A stretch of DNA of 24,231 nucleotides, taken from a virus. Position numbers and translations under genes: made by a program. This document shows, in pieces, positions 15,402-24,231 of the stretch (positions within the stretch are counted from its first letter, which is position 1; each line of letters begins with the position of its first letter). Below the pieces are notes generated by a model. That model ran no database searches. It was not told the DNA's origin and saw only the letters and a list, made by a program, of their open reading frames with translations. Location of the stretch: positions 1 through 24,231 of the IMG/VR virus record IMGVR_UViG_3300031834_000046. One strand, given 5' to 3'.

Positions 15402-15698
15402 ATGCTACCTCTTCTAACTACTCTGTCTGTCTTAAGCTCTTGGTATGGTCCTGGTTTCCACGGGAACCTAACAGCCAATGGTGAACGATACAATCAAAAC
15501 GGCCTTACGGCAGCGCACAAGACACTACCATTTGGAACACGCCTCAAGGTTTGTTTCAATAGGTGTGCCGTTGTTCGGGTCAATGATCGTGGTCCCTATG
15601 CTCATGGCAGGGGATTAGATCTAAGTAAAGGTGCGGCTGACAAGATCGGTCTGACCGGCTCTGGAGTTGGTAGGGTCTCCGTGACTCGCCTAAATTAA
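15402..15698 (+). CDS. rlpA: RlpA-like double-psi beta-barrel protein, putative lytic transglycosylase
   Basis: A 98-residue protein that is almost a bare RlpA domain. It shows SSWYGPGFHGNLTANGERYN, LTAAHKTLPFGTRLKV, VVRVNDRGPYAHGRGLDLSK and GVGRVSVTRL, the successive signature strands of the family. Bacterial RlpA cleaves septal glycan lacking stem peptides; the presumed catalytic residues, here E28, H39 and D62, are present. There is no SPOR domain. The N-terminus (MLPLLTTLSVLSS) is hydrophobic but lacks a basic n-region, so it is at best a weak signal peptide; in-frame codons upstream would encode KVLCKKL but contain no usual start codon. It sits between scaffold and capsid, where T7 has no gene. 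It may be a virion-associated or lysis wall enzyme; activity is untested. Confidence 0.88.
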   Translation: MLPLLTTLSVLSSWYGPGFHGNLTANGERYNQNGLTAAHKTLPFGTRLKVCFNRCAVVRVNDRGPYAHGRGLDLSKGAADKIGLTGSGVGRVSVTRLN

Positions 15699-16964: not shown

Positions 16965-17564
16965 ATGACAACCCAACTCCAGGCTATCAATCAGATGCTA
17001 ACGGGTATCGGGCAGGCACCAGTGGTGTCGCTCGACATCGCAAACCCAGAGATTGCTACGGCACTTTCAATTCTTGAGAATGTCAACCGTGAAGTTCAAG
17101 GAGAAGGATGGCATTTCAATTCTGAAATCGACTATCCATTTACCCCTAACACTGATGATGAGATCCTTGTACCTGATAATGTACTACAAATCTCAGACAA
17201 CAAGAATTCAAATGTTCAACAATACCAGACCGTATTAAGAAGCGGCAAACTCTACGATAAAGTAAACCATACTTATAAATTCATTAATCCAGTTCCAGTT
17301 CGCTGTGATGTGGTGTGGTTATTTAATTTTGAGGATCTTCCCCAAGTCTTTAAGGATTACATCACCCAACGTGCTGCTCGTGTGTTTGCGGGAAGTGTTG
17401 TTGGATCAAAGGAGATGTTCCAATTTAATGCTCAAGATGAAACCATGCTGAGAGCTAACTGTATTGCTTATGATACAGGAACGTCTGACGTAAACATCTT
17501 TGGTGTTGAGACAGGTCAGAACTTCTATATCTCTTATACTCCGTTCCGCACAATTGCACGATAA
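16965..17564 (+). CDS. Tail tubular protein A / gatekeeper (T7 gp11-like)
   Basis: A 199-residue protein; T7 gp11 is 196. It forms the dodecameric ring that joins the portal to the nozzle. Family features: QAINQMLTGIGQAPVVSL at the N-terminus (residues 6-23), LSILENVNREVQGEGWHFNS (35-54), and DYITQRAARVFAGSVVGS in the C-terminal half. It starts about 20 bases after the post-capsid terminator, and its stop overlaps the gp12 start by one base, so the two are translated together. Confidence 0.94.
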   Translation: MTTQLQAINQMLTGIGQAPVVSLDIANPEIATALSILENVNREVQGEGWHFNSEIDYPFTPNTDDEILVPDNVLQISDNKNSNVQQYQTVLRSGKLYDKVNHTYKFINPVPVRCDVVWLFNFEDLPQVFKDYITQRAARVFAGSVVGSKEMFQFNAQDETMLRANCIAYDTGTSDVNIFGVETGQNFYISYTPFRTIAR

Positions 17565-20515
17565 TGGCAGCCATCTCTCAGAAAATTTTTAGTCTTGTTG
17601 GGGGTGTGTCTCAACAACCTGATACAGTTAAGGTTGGCAATCAACTACGCATTTGTGATAACTATTATCCAGACATAGCCACTGGTTTGACCAAACGACC
17701 AGGGCTTAAAGGGATTAGTAAGCTGGCCAATGCGGTGGCTGATGGTACTTGGTTTTCTATCTTTAGGGATGATCAAGAGAAGTACATCATTCAGTTTAGC
17801 AAAGCAGGTGCCCTTAAGGTATGGAGTGCCAGCAATGGTGTCCAACAAACAGTTAACACAGTAGCTGCTGAATCTATTGCGTATGCTGTTCATACAACGA
17901 CAGATGATCTGCAAACTCTTCAGATCAATGATTACATCTTTGTTCTTAACCGTAAGAGAACCGTAGCAGCAGGTGTTGTTAGTAGTGCTGCTCAAACGCC
18001 ATATGCTTTTGCAGCCATTAATACAATAGCGTATAACTCCACCTACTCGATTAAGCTTGATGCTACCACGTTTTCTTATACTACCCCTTCCACATCAGCA
18101 ACTCAATTAAACATTGCTGATATTGTCAACAACATTGTTAATACAATTAATGTCAACACTAGTTGGGTAGCGACCGCTATCGGTAACATTGTTCATATTC
18201 GTCGTGCCAATGATGCTGACTTTGCAATTGAAGCAAAAGGTGGCAGTACCGGAACATCCATTGATGCGTTTAAAGGTTCTGTTGTTTCTGTTGCTCAACT
18301 TCCCAAGCAGTTTCTTAATAACCTAAAGATTAAGGTTGCTGGTTCTGTTGAATCAGGTGCTGATGACTATTGGGTTATCTTTAAAACCAGTGACAACACC
18401 ACTAGTGGCTATGGTTCTTGGGAAGAGACAATTGCTCCAAGCACTGTTACTGATCTAGATGAGGAGACGATGCCTCATGTTATCATCAGGGAAGCTAATG
18501 GAACCTTCACCTATCGTCAACTGGATTTAGCTTCTACTGGTACTGCTGGTACAACATCCGTCAGTGGTGTTCCCACAAGTGTTACCATTACTGGTGCTAC
18601 AAGTGCTGGCCACACTGTTGGAGAGATCTTTGCACCAACGGGTGGTACTGGCAACAACCTAAGACTACGAGTGGATAAGGTTCAAGATTTCTATTCATTG
18701 AATAATACCTTAGCTAACTCTGGCACTTATGTTAAGTCAGTCAGAGGCAGCATTAGAAGCCGTGGAATGAGTGGTAGTAGTACTTATGTAATTTATAATT
18801 ATACCTACTTTTGGTACGAGAATAACGCTCAAATTGGTGTAACTACGAATACCAATCCGTTGCAAATTGGTTACAAAACTTACTCAGTTGGAACATCGTT
18901 TCAAAGCATCAGCAATGAAACAAGGGCTGGCCTTAAGATTGAAGAACGCATCAATGGTTTGATTTCTGCCATTAGCATTGTTCAAGCCGGTCAAGGATAT
19001 ACAGCAACCAACACGGTTCAAAACACGGCAGGTGATACGTTTACCATTGCAAGCGTTAATACTGCTCCAGTTGAGGGAGATTTTAGTCGACTAAAATTCT
19101 GGAAGTATCGGGAAGTGGGTGATGCTACCACCAACCCATTACCCTCCTTTGTAGGGTTCCCAATTGATGCTATTTCCTTTTATAAGAACCGTCTGATCTT
19201 TACCTCTCGTCAAAATGTCATCTGCTCACAGGCAGGAGATTACTTCAACTTCTTTGCTAGCACGGTGATTACAATTGTTGATAGCGACCCTATTGACATT
19301 AGTGCTAGTAGTCTTAAACCAGTTCGACTGCGGTATGCTATTCCTACTCAAACAGGTCTGCTGTTGTTTGGTGATAATGCTCAGTATGTCCTGACAACAA
19401 CAACAGAAGCATTTTCTCCTAAGACTGCTGAGATCAACCTACTGTCTTCTTATAGTCAGTCTGAAAGTGTTTCTCCTCTTGATATTGGGGAAAGCTATCT
19501 ATTCTTGGAAGAAGGTGATAAGGCTTCATCCGTCTATGAGATGATGCCCAATGGTACGGATAAACCCAATACCATTGAATTAACTAGGATTATTCCTTCT
19601 TATATTCCTTCTGCTATTTATGACATGAAGGCTTCTGTGTCAGCAGGAACCGTGGCTCTTCTTAGCAAGCAAGAGCTTAGCAGCATGTATCTCTATCGGT
19701 TCTTCCGCAATGGAGATCAAAAGGTATTATCAAGTTGGTTCCGATGGACGCTTCCTGGTACGATTGAGTTTACTGATTTTGATCAGGATCAAATGTTTGT
19801 TGTTACCAAGCACGGTAGTAACTACGTTCTCAGTAAGGCATCCTTATTGACAGACACCCCAAGTGAGTCACTCTTCTTTGAGGGTCAGTATCTTGATGTA
19901 CGCCTGGATCTCTTTGATTATAAACCTACTCTTAACTATAATGCTGGTACAGGTTTAACTCGTGTCTGCTTTAAGGATGGGTTTGAAGATACCAATGAGC
20001 AACCAGTATTAATCTTCCTAGATCCTGCTATCTCTGGTTATTTTGAAGAACAAACTCTTCAATATGATGCCACCGCAGCAGTAGGACAGAGGTACTTCCT
20101 TACGGTTGAGGGCAATCAAACCACATCTAAGTTTGCTGTTGGGTATAAGTATGAAGCATTGGCTCAACTGCCTGCGTTCTACTTTATCAAAGATGCTCAG
20201 AGTGGACTCAAGGATACTGTTAACATTCCCAGGGTTAGTAGGATCAAAGTAAACAGTTACAATTCCGGCCCCTACAAGGCTGTGGTTCGATCTGAGGGTC
20301 GTGATGATTTCACCCTGGAACTACCACAGATCAATGCTGATTATTATCTAGCTAATAACATTCCTATCATTCGGAATGCTCAAAGTACGATACCAGTATT
20401 GGCAAAGGGTGACCAGTTTGAATTTGAATTAATTGCCGATAGTCCATTCCCAACAGCATTTACTTCTCTTGATTGGGAAGGAACATACAACAACAAGGGT
20501 ATCCAGTCCCTTTAA
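17564..20515 (+). CDS. Tail tubular protein B / nozzle (T7 gp12-like) with an inserted domain
   Basis: A 983-residue nozzle protein; T7 gp12 is 794. The N-terminal signature SLVGGVSQQPDTVKVGNQLR (11-30) and the conserved core PSFVGFPIDAISFYKNRLIF, DYFNFFASTVITIVDSDPID and the C-terminal LDWEGTYNNKG match the T7 protein. The extra length is mostly one block, residues about 323-505, between the strand TFTYRQLDL and FSRLKFWKYREV, where T7 has only a few residues. That block is rich in Gly, Thr, Ser and Tyr and holds GHTVGEIFAPTGGTGNNLRL and VQAGQGYTATNTVQ, patterns resembling beta-rich adhesin modules. Six copies would form the tail tip, so the insert is probably exposed. Confidence 0.93.
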   Translation: MAAISQKIFSLVGGVSQQPDTVKVGNQLRICDNYYPDIATGLTKRPGLKGISKLANAVADGTWFSIFRDDQEKYIIQFSKAGALKVWSASNGVQQTVNTVAAESIAYAVHTTTDDLQTLQINDYIFVLNRKRTVAAGVVSSAAQTPYAFAAINTIAYNSTYSIKLDATTFSYTTPSTSATQLNIADIVNNIVNTINVNTSWVATAIGNIVHIRRANDADFAIEAKGGSTGTSIDAFKGSVVSVAQLPKQFLNNLKIKVAGSVESGADDYWVIFKTSDNTTSGYGSWEETIAPSTVTDLDEETMPHVIIREANGTFTYRQLDLASTGTAGTTSVSGVPTSVTITGATSAGHTVGEIFAPTGGTGNNLRLRVDKVQDFYSLNNTLANSGTYVKSVRGSIRSRGMSGSSTYVIYNYTYFWYENNAQIGVTTNTNPLQIGYKTYSVGTSFQSISNETRAGLKIEERINGLISAISIVQAGQGYTATNTVQNTAGDTFTIASVNTAPVEGDFSRLKFWKYREVGDATTNPLPSFVGFPIDAISFYKNRLIFTSRQNVICSQAGDYFNFFASTVITIVDSDPIDISASSLKPVRLRYAIPTQTGLLLFGDNAQYVLTTTTEAFSPKTAEINLLSSYSQSESVSPLDIGESYLFLEEGDKASSVYEMMPNGTDKPNTIELTRIIPSYIPSAIYDMKASVSAGTVALLSKQELSSMYLYRFFRNGDQKVLSSWFRWTLPGTIEFTDFDQDQMFVVTKHGSNYVLSKASLLTDTPSESLFFEGQYLDVRLDLFDYKPTLNYNAGTGLTRVCFKDGFEDTNEQPVLIFLDPAISGYFEEQTLQYDATAAVGQRYFLTVEGNQTTSKFAVGYKYEALAQLPAFYFIKDAQSGLKDTVNIPRVSRIKVNSYNSGPYKAVVRSEGRDDFTLELPQINADYYLANNIPIIRNAQSTIPVLAKGDQFEFELIADSPFPTAFTSLDWEGTYNNKGIQSL

Positions 20516-21552: not shown

Positions 21553-24231
21553 ATGGCTAGCATTTATGAATCCCCTAACCAGCAGGTTGCTTTAACTGGA
21601 TCTCAAACATCTCCTTCCTTTCAACCCGGCATAGCGTTTGATCCTAGCCGGCAGATGCTTGCTCAATCCGAAAAGGATCTTGGTGCTTTTGCTCAGTTTA
21701 GTGAAACGCTTGAAGGATTTCTTAAGCAACAAGCTGAAAAAAGAAAAAAAGCTAAAAGAGCTGAAGGTTATGCTAAATTTATTCGTGGAGAAGTTATTCT
21801 AGATCCACAAAATAAAGATAAATTTGTTGCCAAAACTGCTGTGGTAGAAGCCGCAGCAACTAGAGATATTAACGCCGCTAAAGCTATTGCTAACTCTGGA
21901 ACAGACCCTGGGGCAGCCAGTACTATTCTCTCTACCAGTCCAGCTCTTAAAGGTCAGGAAGCTATCGGTGCTGCCATCGCTGCTGCTCAATTAGCTCCGG
22001 CTAGTTTGGAATCCTTTTTGTATTCTAAAAAGAGAAGTGATCAACCCGTTACCTTATCAGATGGTAGTGTTGTAAAACCAAATGAAGCCAAGGGTTATCA
22101 AATTAGTGATGTGACCCGAGTACTAACTCAGCAATGGGTCCAAGAGTATGGACTTGATAGACTGAATCCAGAAATCATTCAAGAATACGGTGGCTATAAT
22201 ATGGCCATGGCTGAGCGCGAAGTTATGCGTTCTTGGATGAAAGAAACAGATGAACGTGAACTAAAGACACGGCAATATAATGTAACTATTAAAAGTGCCA
22301 ATACCATTACAAGTGCCTTGACCCCAAATGGTGCTGTTCAATGGCAAGCAACGTCTTTTGCTGATTTGCTGCGTGAATTTGGTGATCCTGTTACTGCCAA
22401 TGAAACGCAACTAAAGATCATTGATGATCAACTTAAAATATATGCAGATGTTATAGACACAGGTTCTATGGGTTCTCTCGTTGCATCCCTAGAACAGGCT
22501 CCAATTCCAGGAACTAATTTGACATTTGGCCAAAAGAATGCTGCTAAATTTAGGGAGTTTAAAGCATTAATTTCAACGACCCAAAAAGCAAAAGCTCAGG
22601 CAGCAGACAACAACGAAAAATCAACTTTAGATCTTCAATGGAATCAATTTCAATCCCTTAGGCGTACTGCTACTCCTGAACAATTAACTATTCTCCGAAA
22701 GAAATTTAGAGAGTCTTTAACTAAAAGTTCCAGTCCTTATGCAATGGAACTGCAAAATAAATTAACTACTGAAGACGGTTCACTACGATTAGCAGAAGCT
22801 ATTGAAAAGCAAATTCGTTCTGGAAATAAAAAGCCAGGAGGAGGATTCCTTTGGGATGAAACTGAGGTTGATAAGTTGGTTCTTAACGAAGATCTAGAAG
22901 AAGCAGATGCTAAACGCATTAAAGATATGCTTCCCGACATTCCCAGCGTAGCGGAATTGGGTAAAGGGATTGGTGCTCAAATGGTCATCCCTTCAGTTAA
23001 GGAAGATATCTTGCGTAAACTTGGTGCCAAAGGGTTAAATTATAAACCTGATTCCGGTTTTGGGATGAGAATTGATTCAGCCATTAATGGCGCTTCACGG
23101 GTTGCTTTTGATACTCTCTCTTCCAAATGGCAAGCCGAGTTTGATAAAACTGGAAAGTATCCTAATGATTCTGTAGCTGCGCAACAGTGGATTGTAGAGA
23201 CGCTAAAAAATCTTAGCCTTGAGAAAGAACCATATTATATTGATTTAAAAACAGGTTTAACTCCAAACACATTGAAGCCTCTTCCAGCTGGACAACCGTA
23301 TCAAATTAAGAATCCTGTTGCTTCTCCTGAAGAAGTTCGCCGCATCCGGCAACAAGTGGGGCCTTTGCCTACCATGTCGCCAACGGTTCAACGGATTGAA
23401 GATCCAAGTGATTTTGATTTTTATCAAAACATTATTAGTAAAGGAGGAGTGTTGCCCGAAGAGGTCACGGCTGCTGTTACTATGACTGGCCTTAGTGTCG
23501 ATGGTTGGATGGCTGCTCAGGGAAAATTATTAGGAGTACCCTACCAACCAAATCCTGATAAGTTGGCGTCATTTCAAAAGATGGCTGCTATCAATCGTAC
23601 TGCGGCTAATGTTCTCGGTAACCCTAGATCCACCGTTGCTCAAATGAAAAGTTCAATGCAATTTTTAGAAGCAGGGGCAACCCCTACTCCTATGGCACAA
23701 GGAGATAATTTAGGAACCGGTGATTTTGGTGGATTGGCTAAGCTCACTTCCAGTGGAGAGGGTGGATTCAATTCTGTTAATTATGGAACTACTAGTTCTG
23801 GTACGCAAATTAATCTCACCTCCATGAACATTGGAGAGGTAGAACAGTTGCAAAAACAAGGCAAATTATTTGCTGTTGGATTTGCTCAATGGGCTATTCC
23901 TGATGGAAAAAATAGTAACCTGACAAAAGCAAGGATTGCGGCCAACCTACCACCAACAGCCAAGATGACACCAGAAAATCAACTTAAGATGTTCTGGGGT
24001 TATATTCTTAATTCTAATGTGCGTCCTGATCTGCGTGATTACCTGCTGGGTAAGAACAATGACCTTGATCGAGCACAAGAAGCATTTGCTTTTGAATGGG
24101 CTGGAGCACCTGGAGTGAATGGCAAAGGCAAGTATGATAATGATGCTGCTGGCAATAAAGCCACCATTAATTCAACAAAACTTCGCCAAACCCTTCTTAA
24201 CGCTCGTCGAGAACTTAAGCAAATGATTGAT
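21553..24231 (+). CDS. Internal virion protein at the gp15 position, with a muralytic domain, cut by the window edge
   Basis: Open from ATG at 21553 to the last base, 893 codons without a stop, so it is partial at the 3' end. Following gp14, it should be part of the ejection core that crosses the envelope. It is mostly helical and Ala/Lys/Gln-rich, with a basic patch KQQAEKRKKAKRAEG near residue 58. From about residue 730 there is LTSSGEGGFNSVNYG, then SMNIGEVEQLQKQGKLFAVG and FAQWAIPDG, a pattern resembling phage peptidoglycan hydrolases (E736 the likely acid). T7 gp15 is 747 residues without such a domain; in T7 the wall enzyme is at the N-terminus of gp16. This may be a rearranged or fused gp15/gp16. 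Confidence 0.85.
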   Translation, partial: MASIYESPNQQVALTGSQTSPSFQPGIAFDPSRQMLAQSEKDLGAFAQFSETLEGFLKQQAEKRKKAKRAEGYAKFIRGEVILDPQNKDKFVAKTAVVEAAATRDINAAKAIANSGTDPGAASTILSTSPALKGQEAIGAAIAAAQLAPASLESFLYSKKRSDQPVTLSDGSVVKPNEAKGYQISDVTRVLTQQWVQEYGLDRLNPEIIQEYGGYNMAMAEREVMRSWMKETDERELKTRQYNVTIKSANTITSALTPNGAVQWQATSFADLLREFGDPVTANETQLKIIDDQLKIYADVIDTGSMGSLVASLEQAPIPGTNLTFGQKNAAKFREFKALISTTQKAKAQAADNNEKSTLDLQWNQFQSLRRTATPEQLTILRKKFRESLTKSSSPYAMELQNKLTTEDGSLRLAEAIEKQIRSGNKKPGGGFLWDETEVDKLVLNEDLEEADAKRIKDMLPDIPSVAELGKGIGAQMVIPSVKEDILRKLGAKGLNYKPDSGFGMRIDSAINGASRVAFDTLSSKWQAEFDKTGKYPNDSVAAQQWIVETLKNLSLEKEPYYIDLKTGLTPNTLKPLPAGQPYQIKNPVASPEEVRRIRQQVGPLPTMSPTVQRIEDPSDFDFYQNIISKGGVLPEEVTAAVTMTGLSVDGWMAAQGKLLGVPYQPNPDKLASFQKMAAINRTAANVLGNPRSTVAQMKSSMQFLEAGATPTPMAQGDNLGTGDFGGLAKLTSSGEGGFNSVNYGTTSSGTQINLTSMNIGEVEQLQKQGKLFAVGFAQWAIPDGKNSNLTKARIAANLPPTAKMTPENQLKMFWGYILNSNVRPDLRDYLLGKNNDLDRAQEAFAFEWAGAPGVNGKGKYDNDAAGNKATINSTKLRQTLLNARRELKQMID

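Follow-up and report, generated by a model that had tools for sequence, protein, structure and literature searches.

A nested, fast-varying insertion in the T7-type nozzle of cyanophage-like podoviruses: a putative surface-contact domain

The stretch of DNA analysed here (the window, 24,231 bases) covers positions 1 to 24,231 of IMG/VR virus record IMGVR_UViG_3300031834_000046. Its genes stand in a T7-like order, running from RNA polymerase, endonuclease I, primase-helicase and DNA polymerase through a ribonucleotide reductase-like gene to portal, scaffold, capsid, gp11, gp12 and gp13/gp14-like genes. Within the phage collection searched, the capsid and portal proteins are nearest to those of Synechococcus phage S-CBP2 (68.8% and 65.1% identity, respectively), and from this kinship a picocyanobacterial host is likely; psbA, sought as a host marker, turned up in none of 12 possibly fragmentary records and is uninformative on the host. 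Between the scaffold and capsid genes, an unexpected location, a 98-aa protein (15402..15698, + strand) matches DPBB_1 (named lytic transglycolase, PF03330; E 7.4e-23) and is one that we take to be RlpA-like. An 893-aa open reading frame that follows the gp14-like gene (21553..24231, + strand) is truncated at the window end; its PHROG matches are weak, and it is probably an internal virion protein.

The subject of this work is gene 12, whose product scores 596.5 bits on PF25675 against a cut-off of 27. The full-length AF2 monomer model (54 sequences; pLDDT 80.5, pTM 0.71) aligns with the T7 nozzle (8e4g) over 747 of 793 chain residues (Z 34.0, r.m.s.d. 3.0), and in this model the T7 nozzle fold is retained around an insertion. 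Several entries of a viral structure library that match the full model are named, going by their entry names, as adhesin or similar domains. The features of the locus are as follows.

16965..17564, + strand: gene 11, adaptor (tail tubular protein A), directly upstream of gene 12 (phrog_446 tail protein, E 7.4e-60)
17564..20515, + strand: gene 12, nozzle protein (tail tubular protein B), 983 aa (Pfam Phage_nozzle PF25675, E 1.1e-178; AF2 model against T7 nozzle 8e4g)
18503..18529, + strand: conserved strand TFTYRQLDL, the left flank, probably the end of propeller blade 3 (alignment with T7 and other cultured nozzles)
18527..19099, + strand: whole insertion relative to T7, residues 322-512, 191 aa (multiple alignment)
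18530..18688, + strand: first half of the module, residues 323-375 (alignment to the 105-aa single-module class; AF2 strands 330-344 and 367-381)
18689..18952, + strand: nested head, residues 376-463, in the central hairpin of the module, absent from 21 of 83 nozzles (alignment of single and nested classes; AF2 insert model)
18695..18835, + strand: hypervariable stretch of the head, residues 378-424 (mean pairwise identity 0.37, against 0.70 for residues 506-983)
18953..19078, + strand: second half of the module, residues 464-505, with QAGQGYTATNTVQNTAGDTFTI (class alignment, module profile matches)
19100..19123, + strand: conserved block WKYREVGD, the right flank leading into blade 4 (alignment with T7 and other cultured nozzles)

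The initial annotation had described an insertion of about 180 residues in the nozzle, and this proved to be real: residues 323-505 are encoded at 18530-19078 as claimed, and phmmer and the multiple alignment agree. The phmmer match of T7 gp12 (6r21) splits into residues 1-321 and 512-977 of gene 12 and that of P-SCSP1u (8i4m) into residues 2-321 and 516-978, while the multiple alignment sets the strict insertion at residues 322-512, between T7 residues 326 and 327. Its 191 residues make up nearly all of the length difference from T7 (983 versus 794 aa, a difference of 189), again as claimed. The described richness in glycine, threonine and tyrosine holds for Gly (12.0% versus 5.8% in the rest of the protein) and Thr (15.3% versus 8.9%) but not for Tyr (only 5.5% versus 4.9%). 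The insert is neither a chance product nor an assembly error, because no stop interrupts the frame and relatives share the insert at 31-87% identity.

At the same site, 12 cultured references (T7, S-CBP2, Syn5, S-TIP28, SS120-1, P-SSP7, P-SSP3, S-SBP1, NATL2A-133, P60, RHEph01 and S-CBP3) have 0 to 12 residues more than T7. S-CBP42 was excluded from these references since its nozzle frame is broken, stopping after 384 aa; the gene (KC310805.1 5082-8196, L039) is unannotated in its record. A wider check drew 60 records from across the 2,531 phage records that had a match. Judged by match spans alone, none of the 30 rows that span the junction (H105-H134) has room for a 105-aa insert; H134 has the largest surplus, about 76 residues anywhere within its span, followed by H126 with about 40. 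No cultured member of the insert-bearing kind came to light in the phage collection.

Two scans of IMG/VR gave 91 loci, of which nine with an incomplete nozzle (under 880 aa) were dropped and 82 with a nozzle of at least 880 aa were kept, making 83 nozzles with the window. All 83 full-length nozzles of this set have the insert. The set is biased towards the window's kind, because of 579 relatives in the larger scan the 80 most like the window were kept, and because one of the six patterns used in the smaller scan lies inside the insert; insert-free relatives may be under-sampled. The inserts fall into distinct sizes, with 105 aa in 21 nozzles, 174-197 aa in 60, 240 aa in L024 and 266 aa in L076, and the flanks are near constant in length, two other sites excepted. 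The 105-aa form is a single module of exactly that length in 21/21 cases. Alignment of the classes reveals that the larger form is the same module with a head (88 aa in the window and about 88 in the class) nested in its central hairpin. An internal duplication of the module, first half against second, is not claimed, the profile comparison giving a probability of 0.4%.

L024 and L076 carry an additional domain ahead of the module. That of L076 aligns with a 76-aa domain located after T7 residue 662 in L017, L018, L019 and L062, and a similar excess length is found in the T7 662 part of gene 12 in L016, L020, L021 and L026. Separately, L079, L080, L090 and L091 have about 92 extra residues with GSGY repeats before the insert site, at about T7 181, which in L079 and L090 lie in the tip domain. 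By eye these tip inserts, and those of the cultured cyanophages, resemble the module (GSGY, GGTG-GD), but with the module HMM the best of their 14 segments (0.024) did not stand out from the best of 700 shuffles (0.03), and no more than a resemblance is claimed.

The conservation of the protein was profiled as the mean pairwise identity per region among 31 non-redundant close nozzles of the nested class. The values are 0.73 for residues 1-140, 0.63 for 141-322, 0.64 for 323-377, 0.37 for 378-424, 0.46 for 425-463, 0.60 for 464-505 and 0.70 for 506-983, and the ten lowest 47-residue segments of the whole nozzle all overlap the head. The insert is more variable than its flanks, most clearly in the head loop (0.37 versus 0.70 for residues 506-983). 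The initial annotation had proposed an alignment with cyanopodovirus gp12 to see whether the insert is variable between fixed flanks; in the 12 cultured references, mostly cyanopodoviruses, the insert is absent rather than variable. Among 21 disjoint pairs, some of which share near-identical members and are not fully independent, the loop (378-424) falls below core identity in 17 and below 95% of core segments in 14, while in 7 of the 21 it is not unusually variable. Between the window and L001 the loop is 62% identical and the seven other regions 92-97%, with a dN of 0.29 in the loop versus 0.01-0.06 elsewhere and a loop dS (0.42) that falls among the values of the other regions. The loop dN/dS stays under 1 in the variable pairs, some of which (L007/L023, L018/L026) also have a raised loop dS; because of these two properties, recombination or relaxed constraint could be the source of the loop variation.

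A core tree was built by a quick method (LG+G4) from 61 rows, namely 49 of the 83 nozzles and the 12 references, with the insert columns removed, and rooted on T7. The 12 insert-free references lie on one side of a branch with support of 100, S-CBP2 being the nearest (99) and several reference branches being long. The tree contains one change between absence and presence of the insert, and the insert-bearing nozzles form one clade adjoining S-CBP2; L111, an 80% relative of S-CBP2, is also without the insert. Of the single-module rows, nine group together; the other two, L083 and L088, are placed inside the nested group beside L059 and so would most simply have lost the head. Either the head or the single module may have come first, since the insert clade opens with an unresolved fork to which the nested row L078 belongs. 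The leading domains of L024 and L076 would most simply be two separate gains, because these rows lie apart on the tree. The near-identical gene 12 sequences of L087 and L088 differ sharply only at window residues 141-322 (77% identity, dS 0.75 versus 0.03-0.07 elsewhere), which suggests that the tip region was swapped by recombination.

The initial annotation had likened the insert to the repeats of phage adhesins, and here the profile searches lend it substance. An HMM of the 105-aa module matches repeats in three of seven cyanomyovirus virion proteins tested, S-SSM4 CYXG_00067 (E 5.5e-7), P-SSM4 PSSM4_087 (2.6e-6) and Sf-CH1b_90 (3.7e-5), with E-values at Z 1000 and a best of 0.65 among 140 shuffles. 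PSSM4_087, annotated as a YadA domain-containing structural protein, has a run of consecutive module matches, one strong and several weak. None of the seven was matched by the full nested-insert profile (A5), and none by the profile of the first half of the module; that of the second half matched one. Individual tblastn leads are weak (best E 0.04), but 13 of the 14 matched records listed, which come from 8 different phages, are cyanophages. Over 186 sources, for the most part short stretches retrieved on account of their nozzles, with some contigs represented more than once and other genes thinly covered, the module HMM matches 154 open reading frames, 151 nozzles and the three cyanomyovirus proteins just named; the head HMM matches 70 and the leading-domain HMM 10, all of them nozzles. 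In a separate module scan of viral contigs, for which the peptide patterns were derived from nozzles, 63 of 63 loci were nozzles.

Searches with the window insert itself returned no Pfam or PHROG match at E up to 10 and no clear match to a solved fold (Foldseek best E 0.019, probability 0.16; VIA best Z 4.2). The viral structure library gave weak matches only, none at E <=0.001, some of them to cyanophage structural proteins. An Ig-like nature of the head, suggested by eye from YxWYxNG, is unsupported by the Pfam or fold searches; Ig_3 was hit, under the cut-off (E 0.028), only in L079 of the proteins scanned.

Predicted alone with AF2, the insert is nearly all beta with a mean pLDDT of 90.0 and a 23-residue strand running from the head into the module, and the model presents it as a folding domain of its own. 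Six such inserts of 183 aa would presumably amount to about 120 kDa or roughly 146,000 cubic angstroms, by our own arithmetic from average protein values. The gates of the T7 nozzle are given as 8.6-23 Å wide (PMC6702177), and because the bulk of six inserts is too much for such gates, a fold internal to the channel is unlikely and a position outside can be argued.

In the full AF2 model the insert comes after strand 315-318 and before strand 536-540. The same source for T7 (PMC6702177) has the tip domain leaving blade 3, the gate-2 loop as part of blade 6, cysteine 504 in blade 7, cysteine 554 in blade 1, and Y281 at the propeller base; by these landmarks the insert site (T7 326) follows the last strand of propeller blade 3, 45 residues beyond Y281. 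On these landmarks we infer that the insert occupies the link between blades 3 and 4. In SU10 (PMC9509320), blades 4-6 line the channel and blades 1-3 are distant from the axis, and if that numbering carries over, the site would mark the boundary between channel-distant and channel-lining blades. T7 gp12 substitutions near or facing the host affect residues 184, 205 and 242, according to PMC12798971, and lie well before 326. The placement "at the tail tip" in the initial annotation finds no support in this wording, as the site is the blade 3/4 junction (T7 326) and that of the tip domain is T7 about 170-174; by the alignment and the published landmarks we reject the insert as part of the tip domain.

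With a probability that we put at about 60%, the insert is an accessory, outward-facing adsorption domain on a T7-type nozzle, a putative contact with the cell. A compact all-beta module would occupy the blade 3/4 connector in a clade of T7-type (cyanophage-like) podoviruses, with six copies displayed on the outer side of the knob, close to where the nozzle tip is rooted; most nozzles examined add a nested second head with a fast-changing distal loop, and two a further small domain in front. The module would serve as a low-affinity surface-contact domain alongside the ordinary tail fibres, and its variable loop would track differences in the host surface. The fibre N-terminal domain PF03906 was found in 13 of 13 records (12 of the clade and S-CBP2); as all carry a T7-type fibre gene, the insert does not replace the fibres. 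Tail tubular proteins of a Vibrio phage attach to a receptor on the cell surface (PMC7241545), and binding to cells is also stated for tail tubular protein B of phiYeO3-12 (PMC7582827). The reading as an accessory outward contact domain is drawn from these two points, fibres that are retained and tail tubular proteins that, in these sources, can contact the cell.

The main rivals to a contact domain are a stabilising collar and passive decoration. As a structural collar the insert would brace the six nozzle subunits or set the fibre angle, and its loop would co-evolve with the fibre or a neighbouring subunit. According to PMC9509320, the tail of SU10 is stabilised by its Ig-like nozzle domains, which touch the fibre dock and adjacent nozzle subunits, and a fibre gene is present in all 13 records tested; yet S-CBP2, the closest cultured relative, and L111 manage without the insert, head-less forms make up 21 of the 83, and the head loop is the least conserved stretch of the protein, unlike a fixed interface. 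We regard the collar as unlikely. More improbable still would be passive decoration, in which a permissive loop tolerates an acquired promiscuous phage domain that does little and whose head is under relaxed constraint, even though the domains differ among relatives at the T7 326 site and at T7 662 and the loop dS is also raised in several pairs: the module halves keep identities of 0.60-0.64, near that of residues 141-322 (0.63), and a length of 105 aa in 21/21 is not drift. An enzyme domain acting on exopolysaccharide is hardly credible. The leading domain of L024 weakly resembles a phage endosialidase beta-barrel domain (PF12195, E 0.0055, 17.1 bits versus a cut-off of 35), but the window insert has neither a Pfam or PHROG family at E up to 10 nor a clear fold match, and the invariant and nearly invariant insert positions include one acidic residue, Asp491.

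An extension of the contact-domain reading that we offer tentatively, as possible though doubtful, is that the nozzle is a modular display scaffold, with fixed loops (T7 326, 662 and about 170-181) where domains are gained, nested within others and lost. The nested head would then be a second, fibre-independent receptor site, and its loop would help to set the host range of uncultured cyanophages. Host range in short-tailed phages is commonly deduced from the genes for tail fibres; should the nozzle itself bear a variable contact domain, gene 12 would also need to be considered when predicting the hosts of a group of aquatic phages. The series from no insert to module, module with nested head and leading domain, in whatever order the head came and went, also provides material on how a tail protein gains and loses surface domains with its channel undisturbed.

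Compared with known nozzles, the window shares its fold and the gene order after gp11 with T7 gp12 (PDB 6r21, 8e4g; PF25675), which has no insertion at residues 326/327, where gene 12 of the window has 191 residues. The nozzles of seven marine cyanopodoviruses (Syn5, S-TIP28, SS120-1, P-SSP7, P-SSP3, NATL2A-133 and P60) are likewise enlarged T7-type proteins of 905-993 aa, but their extra 111-199 residues belong to the tip domain (T7 about 170-174), no more than 12 being added at T7 326, and the module HMM does not recognise these tip inserts above shuffles. The S-SBP1 nozzle has 193 extra residues, aligned at T7 104. The cyanomyovirus repeat proteins (PSSM4_087, CYXG_00067 and Sf-CH1b_90) are about 1,700-2,660 aa long and belong to T4-like phages, whereas the window has a single copy inside a nozzle. 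SU10 gp17, which has no detectable sequence similarity to T7 gp12, carries four Ig-like nozzle domains on a hexameric nozzle (PMC9509320), and so has extra beta domains between propeller blades, as in the window; they lie between blades 2 and 3 rather than 3 and 4, and no Ig fold was found for the window insert. The muzzle protein of crAss001, as the review PMC10136315 has it, is a propeller nozzle with added Ig-like and tip domains that may dock on the cell surface; its domains and the phage order differ from those of the window nozzle. Open-access titles and abstract openings, with few subscription journals among them, yielded no description of a module at the T7 326 site, of nested forms or of a hypervariable head. 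Added beta domains on propeller nozzles are already known from SU10 and crAss001; what may be new here is the module at the T7 326 site, its nested forms and its hypervariable head.
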